From NCBI GenBank assembly GCA_030748335.1, contig JASMMD010000016.1:1-33877 (forward strand): a stretch of DNA of 33,877 bases. The letters run 5' to 3'. The first letter of the stretch is position 1; every line of letters begins with the position of its first letter. Source of the DNA: Candidatus Thalassarchaeum sp. (GTDB taxonomy: Archaea; Thermoplasmatota; Poseidoniia; Poseidoniales; Thalassarchaeaceae). The notes under the pieces were generated by a model, which saw nothing but the letters and a program-made list of their open reading frames with translations, had not been told where the DNA came from and ran no database searches. The translations under genes were made by a program, and so were the position numbers. This document shows positions 17,012 to 19,842 of the stretch, piece by piece.

Positions 17012-17872
17012 TCAGTCGCCGATTACCGCAATTCTAGTGCGCAGTTGTGCCAGCCTAGTGTTGTGGTGTCCCATCGAGAAAGAAAGCATCTCTGTGAGGT
17101 GTATGACTGGGATGTTGGTGGCCAGCCCAGTCGACCTCGATGCCTTGCCTTGGTAGACGTCGAGGACGGTGTGAGAGAGATTGCACGCGCTCACGATGAG
17201 GTCTGCGCCCTCGGACTTGGCCTCGTGGAGCACAGAGGCTGCCTGCCGCAGCACTGTAGACTCCTCTGAGAAGAGTCCCGGAACCCCGACGCTCTGGGTG
17301 CGCCCCTCCCACTGCACCGGCCTCCCGCCAAGCGCGTCGATGACCAATTCGAGGTACTCGGGGTCGTGGACGTCGTCGCCCCCACAGGCCCCGGTCTGCT
17401 GGATATTGGGACCGTAGAACCCAGCGACATCGAAGTCGATAGGGTTCCTCACCTCCGATTCTAGCCTCTCGATTCCGACCTCATCGACGATGACATGCAG
17501 GAGGTGGTGGACGTGTGTGTCGCCCGAGAATCTCCTGCCGCATGTCTTCTCTAGGACCTCGTTGATCTCCCCGAGCAGGTTCGGGTCCTGCTTCAGTGTA
17601 GCGAGGTCTTCCTGCAGGTTGCCCGCAGTCGCGGCGCATGGCGTTATGATGTCGAGACCCATTTCCTCGGCCATCGAGAATGTGCGTGCGTTAAGGGTCA
17701 GCTGGAGGCGTCTGCTGGCCTGCTTGATTATGCCGGCTCCGCAGCTGGTGGCACCATCCAGAGGGACCAACTCGATGCCCAGTGAGCTTGCTACCGGTTC
17801 CATCGTCTCTGCCACCTCGGTGGCGCTGCTGTGGGCCACGTTTCCGGGGTGGTAGGCGTACTTCAGGGGCAT
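17012..17872 (-). CDS. HdrB/SdhE-like (CCG-domain) protein with most cluster-ligand cysteines substituted
   Basis: LKYAYHPGN...LGIELVPLDGATSCGAG...ITPCAAT matches the CCG-domain layout (YxPGC...CCG...CxxC); second repeat FYGPNIQQ...TQSVGVPG...IVSACNLS. Confidence 0.75.
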   Translation of the reverse strand: MPLKYAYHPGNVAHSSATEVAETMEPVASSLGIELVPLDGATSCGAGIIKQASRRLQLTLNARTFSMAEEMGLDIITPCAATAGNLQEDLATLKQDPNLLGEINEVLEKTCGRRFSGDTHVHHLLHVIVDEVGIERLESEVRNPIDFDVAGFYGPNIQQTGACGGDDVHDPEYLELVIDALGGRPVQWEGRTQSVGVPGLFSEESTVLRQAASVLHEAKSEGADLIVSACNLSHTVLDVYQGKASRSTGLATNIPVIHLTEMLSFSMGHHNTRLAQLRTRIAVIGD

Positions 17873-19842
17873 CAGAACCTACCATCCACTTCGTTGAATA
17901 TCGCGACGACCTCATGGTGGTCGTCGATAGAGGAGTTGAACTGCTTGGGCATCTTCCCGATGCCGGCGGGAGGAGCCACCATCCCGAGCATCCCGTTGAA
18001 CACGTTTCCTCCTGTCCTAGTGAAACCGAGGACCATCCGGGCAGTGACTCCAGAGAACAGGTTCCCGAGTAGACCCATGGGGCCGAGTACCTGCCTGTAG
18101 ACAACTGTGTCATTGACCCTACCGCTGCTCTTCACGGACCAGGTGTACCACCATACGTGCTTGCCGTGGCGGCCGTTGAAGGCGTCCCTAGACAGAGTCG
18201 AGGTCCGTGCGTCGAGCAGGGCCTCGGCGATAATTCTAGTCGAGTCGTTCTGACGGCGGATTGAGGCTAGGTCCGTCTCGGCCTTAATGCCGCCCTTGGA
18301 GTCCATAACCGCATGCATCTCGGTTATGCTCCCCACCGAGGAGCGAGGGTCGTTTATTCGGGCCCAAGTCCGTGCCAGCACGGCCGGGCCGAGGTACGCT
18401 TCGGCGTGAGGAGTAGCGTCCGAGCAAGAGTGGAGCAGGGGCGCACTACAGAAGTCGGTCGACGAGTGCAGCACGTCCGCCGTCGAAGCCTCCATTGTGC
18501 CAATTACTCCCTGCGAGGTCTCGGCCCCGTCCCTAGTCGCTGCCACCATCCACGGCTTGGAGGACTCGCGCCCTCTCTCAAGCGGCCAGTGGTCCACCAC
18601 CAGATCACGGATGACGTCGAACGCGGGCAGGGGTTCTATGCGCAGCCTCAAACCGCCGTCGCGAATCGGCGCGACCGAGTCAAGTCTGACACCTCCAGGC
18701 AGGATTAGCCTGCCGTTGACCGATATGGCTGTGGTCGGGTCGTCGCTGGGGCCGTCCCTGAACGACAGGGTGCCGTCATGAGTTTCCTTGAGCGTCCTCA
18801 GCGACTCGAGCACCGTCATGTGACCTGGCAGGGCACAGACCCAAGTGTCCTTGCCAGTGCTTGCACTGACCGGGTCATAGCGGAAGATGCTAATCTCGGC
18901 CTGGATTACCTTGGCTGTGGTATCCGGGACCGAGAAGCCGTCATCACCGGATGCACCTGCAGCTGCCGAGCCGGAGACGAGGTCCTTGATCGCCTCGACC
19001 TGTTCCTCGTGGAACTCGCCGTTCCCGTCAACTGCGGCCATCACTGCAAGAGCGTCGATGGACCATGCGGCGGCGGGGGCGTCGTAGTCGACGTCACAGT
19101 CGACGCGTTCGACCAGTCGTGTGGCTCCCAACTCCTCCAGTCGCTTGTCCCAGTCCTTACCGGACTCACAGTAGAACTCGTAGCTGCTGTCTCCCAGCGC
19201 CAGTACCGAGAAGCCGACGTTCCCCATTTTGGGGGCCGAGTCGGCACTGGCCTCTTGCCACAGCTCCTCGGCGTTGTCGGGCATTTCGCCCTCGCCCCAA
19301 GTCGAGCAGATGATTAGCACCCTCTTCATCGCGGTCATCGAGGACAGGTCGAACTCATCCATGTCGTGCACCGTGGCATCCAGCCCGTAGTCACTAGCCC
19401 GCTTGGCGAATTTGGCCGCGAGCTCCTCCGAATTTCCGGACTGCGAACCAAAGAGGATGTTCAGTGTACGGTCCCCTGTGGACAGAAGCGAGTCGAGGTC
19501 ATCGCTTGAGACCTCTACGGGGCCCTCGGGCGCAGCCTCCTCTTCTGGCTCGGGCGCAGCCTCCTCTTCTGGCTCGGACTCTCCCTCCTCAGTTCCATCA
19601 ACAACAATGATGACATCGACCGGGCAGGCGTCCGCGGCGTCGAGGATATCATCGGAGAATGAGGATATGACTTCTGGTTTCAGACCGGATTTGTCGATGT
19701 TGCGGTCGTAGCCGCCGTCGACTCTGGCGTCGGGCTTGATGAAGCAGGTGTCCTCGGTGACCTCGAAGACATCGGGTGCGGCCTCCTCACAAGCGTCGCA
19801 TGTGATGCAGCCATCATCGATGAAGACGCTGAATATCTCCAT
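17872..19842 (-). CDS. Ferredoxin - acidic linker - flavodoxin (FMN) - SdhB-like fusion, 656 aa; SdhB-like part lacks most Fe-S cysteines
   Basis: CITCDAC...ACPVDVI ferredoxin; NILFGSQSGNSEELAAKFAKRA...ICSTWGEGEMPDNAEEL...LALGDSSYEFYCESGKDWDKRL flavodoxin; FRYDP...LSFRDGP...VNGRLILPG...LRLRIEPLPAFDVIRDLVVDHW...KPWM...YLGPAVLARTWARINDPRS SdhB-like. Stop and downstream start overlap (TGATG). Confidence 0.82.
   Translation of the reverse strand: MEIFSVFIDDGCITCDACEEAAPDVFEVTEDTCFIKPDARVDGGYDRNIDKSGLKPEVISSFSDDILDAADACPVDVIIVVDGTEEGESEPEEEAAPEPEEEAAPEGPVEVSSDDLDSLLSTGDRTLNILFGSQSGNSEELAAKFAKRASDYGLDATVHDMDEFDLSSMTAMKRVLIICSTWGEGEMPDNAEELWQEASADSAPKMGNVGFSVLALGDSSYEFYCESGKDWDKRLEELGATRLVERVDCDVDYDAPAAAWSIDALAVMAAVDGNGEFHEEQVEAIKDLVSGSAAAGASGDDGFSVPDTTAKVIQAEISIFRYDPVSASTGKDTWVCALPGHMTVLESLRTLKETHDGTLSFRDGPSDDPTTAISVNGRLILPGGVRLDSVAPIRDGGLRLRIEPLPAFDVIRDLVVDHWPLERGRESSKPWMVAATRDGAETSQGVIGTMEASTADVLHSSTDFCSAPLLHSCSDATPHAEAYLGPAVLARTWARINDPRSSVGSITEMHAVMDSKGGIKAETDLASIRRQNDSTRIIAEALLDARTSTLSRDAFNGRHGKHVWWYTWSVKSSGRVNDTVVYRQVLGPMGLLGNLFSGVTARMVLGFTRTGGNVFNGMLGMVAPPAGIGKMPKQFNSSIDDHHEVVAIFNEVDGRF
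19525..19572. repeat. Two exact tandem copies of a 24-bp unit coding PEEEAAPE in the ferredoxin-flavodoxin linker
   Basis: ctcgggcgcagcctcctcttctgg x2, read directly. Confidence 0.95.

Follow-up and report, generated by a model that had tools for sequence, protein, structure and literature searches.

A Poseidoniales gene pair derived from SdhB and SdhE has lost most of its iron-sulfur ligands and carries an exchangeable ferredoxin-flavodoxin front end

The gene pair and its domains

Enzymes of the complex II type are textbook iron-sulfur wires. Here, we analyze two adjoining genes in a stretch of 33,877 nucleotides from Candidatus Thalassarchaeum sp. (contig JASMMD010000016.1, assembly GCA_030748335.1; hereafter the window), which encode relatives of two subunits of such an enzyme and form a pair that is undescribed as far as the searched literature shows. 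Both genes, like all features of the pair given below, lie on the minus strand. The first, q1 (17872..19842, the whole open reading frame including its stop), encodes a ferredoxin-flavodoxin-SdhB-like protein of 656 amino acids (aa), and the second, q2 (17012..17872), an SdhE/HdrB-like protein of 286 aa with two CCG-type halves and a predicted HdrB fold. The stop codon of q1 overlaps the start of q2 in the sequence TGATG (17870..17874, one base shared), making translational coupling of both genes likely; at orthologous loci q1 and q2 also overlap or nearly adjoin. The overlap and the order of domains had been proposed in a sequence-only reading of this DNA, and Pfam and NCBIfam models bear out both reading frames and their domains.

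The N-terminus of q1 (residues 1-82; 19597..19842) is a single-cluster [4Fe-4S] ferredoxin domain (Fer4_13, E 2.4e-7, residues 8-79) with the CxxCxxC...CP signature and the ferredoxin fold. All four cysteines (C12, C15, C18, C73) are intact, and the CxxCxxC...C motif is retained in the orthologues that have the domain. It is followed by a CysJ-type flavodoxin domain (residues 122-285; 18988..19479), recognized by Flavodoxin_1 (residues 129-253, E 1.1e-33), the CysJ model (E 3e-44) and the structures PDB 6efv/1ykg. The fold and the loops for the phosphate and isoalloxazine of flavin mononucleotide (FMN) are present, and the FMN-site motifs SQSGN, STWGEGE and GDxSYExxC are conserved among orthologues; the domain is predicted to bind FMN.

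The flavodoxin domain is nearest to that of CysJ and of the CysJ type found in diflavin reductases, as reflected in the literature annotation “sulfite reductase flavoprotein”. Such a protein combines the flavodoxin with a module for flavin adenine dinucleotide (FAD) and NADPH and has a CysI partner in the genome. In q1, however, a domain search found no FAD/NADPH reductase half, and the sulfite/nitrite reductase hemoprotein (PF01077) was found in none of 40 Poseidoniales genomes, while the control matched in 11 of 14 reference genomes. A sulfite reductase function is thus scarcely credible, and this annotation misleads, as does the other published one, “succinate dehydrogenase cytochrome b”.

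The remainder of q1 resembles SdhB of the E-type succinate dehydrogenases (SDHs), whose defining features include an HdrB-like SdhE bearing a 10-cysteine motif (PMC2680327). The Fer2_3/SdhB match covers residues 317-418, and SdhB models reach approximately residue 510. By alignment to E-type SdhB, the N-terminal [2Fe-2S]-type fold (18589..18909; Fer2_3, E 1.2e-8) has all four cluster cysteines replaced, and all eight are replaced in the C-terminal dicluster region (18208..18588), Ser or Glu being fixed at several of these sites. The last ~110 aa (residues 546-656; 17875..18207) match no Pfam model; they are highly conserved with invariant columns and can be aligned to the extension found at the C-terminus of E-type SdhB. 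q2 is matched over its full length by CCG and HdrB/SdhE models (E 1e-39 and 1e-34), including the SdhE membrane-anchor model.

Descent from an E-type succinate dehydrogenase and loss of ligands

When the phylum was searched with an alignment of q2, the best matches outside the order (E 1e-65 to 1e-71) came from a single Thermoplasmatota family, f6; the phylum's remaining SdhE- and HdrB-like proteins ranked behind them. These relatives sit in sdhA-sdhB-sdhE operons with complete cysteine sets, in which SdhB is extended at its C-terminus by a stretch that can be aligned with the Pfam-unmatched C-terminus of q1. The operon context and the shared extension identify the q1 core and q2 as relatives of the E-type subunits SdhB and SdhE, and these sequence comparisons show that the pair has its origin in the corresponding genes of an archaeal E-type SDH. 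Branches in the SdhB and SdhA trees are long, and the exact sister group of q1, as well as that of an SdhA-like protein discussed below, is not fixed. The paralogy to a true SDH, suggested earlier from the sequence, is likewise confirmed within the source genome, where canonical sdh genes were sought and found. This separate SdhC-like/SdhA/SdhB operon (L037) has complete motifs and all cysteines, and is of a different kind, which MGIII shares; Tully (PMC6336850) mentions the canonical complex II alone. In the same locus, a 291-aa protein (L037:7160-8035, minus strand), which has no Pfam or NCBIfam match, is a putative membrane anchor of the canonical SDH.

To follow the ligand columns, 68 Poseidoniales genomes were aligned to E-type SDHs of another Thermoplasmatota family as outgroup. 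In the 12 ligand columns of SdhB, cysteine occupies 4 of 816 Poseidoniales cells vs. 142 of 144 outgroup cells. E.g., the [2Fe-2S]-type region RYSCRQAICGSC...C has become RDGPSDDPTTA...G in the window. Two ligand positions are fixed, one as Ser and one as Glu (68/68 each), and the substitutes include Ser, Glu, Leu, Ile, Gly and Pro. In the window, q2 retains three of the ten SdhE ligand cysteines (C44, C79, C230). Its first CCG half (17633..17860) keeps C44 and C79, with C11 replaced by Asn, C43 by Ser and C82 by Thr; in the second half (17048..17425) the motif is lost (Pro at position 155, SVG for CCG, CNLS for CPLC) and C230 alone is kept. Across the 68 orthologues the first motif (C11, C43, C44, C79, C82) is complete in seven, whereas the second is lost in all of them except for C230. 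No orthologue carries the full cysteine set (0/68), the seven with the first motif retaining one of five cluster sites. The near-total loss of cluster cysteines under persisting folds, noted before in the window, extends across the 68 genomes. The loss is genuine and no assembly error.

That q1 and q2 are ordinary subunits of an SDH, fumarate reductase or Hdr, holding their clusters via unusual ligands, would agree with the match of the fold models to SdhB and HdrB/SdhE. Yet, residues such as those listed above cannot as a set replace the ligands, the sequence thus contradicts this explanation, and the genome has a separate, complete SDH; we regard it as very improbable. As in E-type SDHs, an SdhB homologue adjoins a homologue of the CCG/10-cysteine SdhE, and the HdrB fold is found in the predicted structure of a fused orthologue. 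We do not class the pair as an E-type SDH, since tests for the cluster motifs that define such enzymes found them absent, i.e., the 12 cysteines of SdhB for a [2Fe-2S] and two [4Fe-4S] clusters and the 10-cysteine motif of SdhE; the two CCG motifs with which HdrB holds noncubane clusters are missing as well. The pair is an E-type SDH/Hdr-derived module that works unlike an E-type SDH.

The cysteines that do remain in q2 deserve separate attention. C79 and C230 occupy equivalent positions of the two halves and are cysteine in 68/68 orthologues, while seven of the other eight ligand columns have cysteine in at most 7/68. In methanogens, HdrB is established to work on disulfides. The HdrB fold is retained in the model. 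The flavodoxin FMN could reduce a C79/C230 thiol/disulfide, and the pair would then be a cluster-free, flavin-driven relative of heterodisulfide reductase. Both thiols may, however, be structural, and we consider this chemistry improbable.

The pair is maintained throughout the order. q1 is present in 141 of 146 Poseidoniales genomes and in 33/33 with a completeness of at least 90% and little contamination, and q2 adjoins it in the loci examined. Full-length matches to the q1 core are restricted to Poseidoniales (64/64 sampled), with none in five genomes of the sister MGIII. For both genes dN/dS (the ratio of nonsynonymous to synonymous substitution rates) amounts to 0.02-0.08 between close pairs, indicating purifying selection; together with the order-wide presence, this argues that the pair is not decaying. 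Twenty-five of the 68 sequences were placed in a rooted q2 tree, where the six with an intact first CCG motif are basal and the 19 that have lost it form a single nested clade (100/99). One metagenome-assembled genome titled Chloroflexi bacterium SP4360 (L159) has a q1/q2 contig similar to marine group II sequences; the contig is probably mis-binned. In another single genome (L162:4858-7818, = L069) q1 and q2 form one open reading frame of 987 aa that lacks the end of q1 at the junction and may be a real fusion or an assembly error; given this missing end and its occurrence in one genome only, the fusion was not used as evidence of a complex.

Exchange of the front end and the proposed electron path

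The front end varies on an otherwise stable core. Among the 68 orthologues it consists of ferredoxin-flavodoxin in 41, flavodoxin-flavodoxin in 22 and a single flavodoxin in five, and upstream of the single-flavodoxin variants a separate ferredoxin was not found. On a tree of the core and q2, the front-end label requires 13-15 changes, at least 9-10 of which are forced by supported branches, and it differs between close relatives (L005/L016, L018/L065, L012/L019). Ferredoxin and flavodoxin have the role of a one-electron carrier in common, not a structure, so the swaps argue that selection preserves electron delivery. Repeated swaps on a stable core thus support a working electron-transfer role of the module. 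The initial proposal of an electron path re-plumbed to the ferredoxin and FMN domains gains the same support, without being proven by it. Flavodoxin classically replaces ferredoxin when iron is scarce or under oxidative stress (PMC5322553, PMC10287166), and iron or oxygen stress may perhaps have driven both the swaps and the loss of iron-sulfur ligands.

The same data bear on a non-redox role, which had also been raised at the outset: a scaffold or regulator, i.e., a pseudoenzyme platform that binds a protein or membrane, with the front end acting as redox or iron sensor. It would fit the loss of all internal electron-transfer ligands from folds in which many residues are invariant. The conserved FMN-site motifs and the recurrent exchange of ferredoxin for a flavodoxin of the same carrier role speak against it, and a pure iron sensor should fail once its cluster domain becomes iron-free. 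We therefore judge a non-redox role rather unlikely.

A flavoprotein with which the pair could exchange electrons is not encoded next to it. The pair lies in a ribosomal gene cluster surrounded by genes for a helicase, thermosome, peptidase and aminotransferase, no redox partner gene was found in this neighbourhood, and an SdhA with succinate-site residues is absent from the operon, the neighbours being the helicase and thermosome. Elsewhere, the source genome encodes a 478-aa SdhA relative with an FAD-binding domain (G000:C1:25423-26859, = L038:4424-5860). Most of the 146 genomes encode relatives of it; from some the search returned the canonical SdhA alone, and MGIII gave matches of the canonical type only. 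The Arg of TEGxRGEGG, the His of HYxMGG and the Arg of HGANRLGGNS are lost in 23/23 aligned sequences, none of which keeps the three catalytic residues of a succinate dehydrogenase flavoprotein. The SdhA-like gene is present in the genomes that seemed to lack the pair, which suggests that their assemblies are incomplete. Since family and kind of loss are shared and the distribution is similar, we take the SdhA-like protein as a candidate third subunit and putative partner of q1 and q2. In most genomes examined, the genes that follow it encode a HIT-domain protein and a PlsC-type acyltransferase, and these neighbours may point to a role involving lipids or nucleotides. A further distant member of the SdhA family (~530-590 aa), with weak PF02910 scores, is present in many Poseidoniales genomes.

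In the reading towards which we lean, the pair is an E-type SDH derivative with flavin transfer in place of iron-sulfur wiring. In the ancestor of Poseidoniales, another SDH would have served the tricarboxylic acid cycle, and the E-type copy would have lost its ligands, presumably all SdhB sites and the second CCG site first and the first CCG site later and in most lineages, with the folds and the q1/q2 pairing retained throughout. A CysJ-like flavodoxin and a ferredoxin or second flavodoxin would have been fused to the N-terminus. Electrons may be taken up by the ferredoxin or the first flavodoxin and handed on to FMN in the second domain, which, being tethered, could dock on the SdhB/SdhE-like platform and exchange electrons directly with a bound flavoprotein. 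The platform would serve as a scaffold in most lineages, as their clusters are gone and no iron-sulfur path is left; in the seven lineages with an intact first CCG motif, one cluster may still participate. The partner is most plausibly the order-specific SdhA-like FAD protein, presumably acting on a substrate other than succinate or fumarate. We infer the cofactor binding (FMN and iron-sulfur) of the front end, the direction of electron flow, the partner, the substrate and iron/oxygen economy as the driver. The evidence as a whole suggests that the enzyme lost its iron wiring in evolution and was rebuilt around flavin. The farther-reaching version, in which an entire E-type SDH (A, B and E) was converted order-wide to a flavin-wired oxidoreductase, its three core subunits having lost either iron-sulfur ligands or the succinate site and a swappable front end delivering the electrons, is possible, but we incline to doubt it.

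Several observations weigh against this flavin-wired derivative. Most lineages have no internal cofactor between FMN and q2, so that a chain through q1 to q2 is impossible and only direct flavin-flavin transfer or transfer to a partner remains. No linkage joins the SdhA-like gene to the pair, the tree does not tie it firmly to the same E-type operon, and G013 (94% complete) has the pair but no SdhA-like gene. Correlation of evolutionary rates was considered as proof of the partnership and dropped as not specific: the partial r of 0.70-0.72 for q1 and the SdhA-like protein is the highest among the pairs tested, vs. 0.54-0.63 for the neighbouring helicase as control. Structure prediction is of limited help, with a mean predicted local distance difference test score of 54 and an unusable SdhB part in the AlphaFold model of q1 from the window. 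The model of the fused orthologue L162 has good flavodoxin and HdrB-like domains and no reliable interface.

If true, the farther-reaching version describes a respiratory-type complex whose iron-sulfur wire evolved away in euryarchaeal plankton that is very abundant at the ocean surface. An order-wide derivative with the wire removed would show how flavins can take over in a respiratory enzyme that depended on iron, perhaps in response to iron or oxygen pressure in surface waters. For the uncultured Poseidoniales, this redox system, misannotated at present, would define the order and be open to testing, and the ferredoxin-flavodoxin swaps on one core would offer a natural series for testing the equivalence of carriers.

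Side observations at the locus concern two further proteins on the minus strand. Upstream of the thermosome gene lies a 1152-aa protein (window:21642-25100) without a Pfam match at gathering level, the family of which appears as a conserved neighbour in 37/39 loci of the order, and window:30248-32584 encodes a 778-aa protein with no Pfam match.

Comparison with known systems

Among the known systems that combine both parts is TfrB of thiol:fumarate reductase, where cooperation of SdhB-like and CCG parts is established for methanogens. TfrB differs in being a fusion with full cysteine sets, and its match to q1 and q2 is weak. With HdrB (PDB 5odc, 8rwn) q2 shares the fold, as seen in the q2 part of the L162 model (TM-score 0.87 to 8rwn_B, normalised to the target, 30% identity), yet the noncubane cluster motifs are lost and q2 is partnered with an SdhB-like protein instead of HdrC/HdrA. 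In the case of the E-type SdhABE(F) enzymes, e.g., that of Acidianus ambivalens and the 8-methylmenaquinol:fumarate reductase of Wolinella succinogenes (PMC2680327), an SdhB likewise stands beside an HdrB-fold SdhE of the 10-cysteine type, and the C-terminal extension of SdhB, the gene order B then E and sequence homology are common to both systems. The cysteine pattern of E-type SdhB implies that a second [4Fe-4S] cluster replaces the [3Fe-4S] cluster, giving 12 cysteines in total (PMC2680327). In contrast, the window pair has no SdhA in its operon, carries a ferredoxin and a flavodoxin fused in front and has lost 12/12 SdhB and 7/10 SdhE ligands. Finally, flavodoxin takes the role of ferredoxin here as it does in iron-limited phototrophs (PMC5322553, PMC10287166), but in Poseidoniales the exchange concerns fused domains of one multidomain archaeal protein and has occurred repeatedly within a single order.
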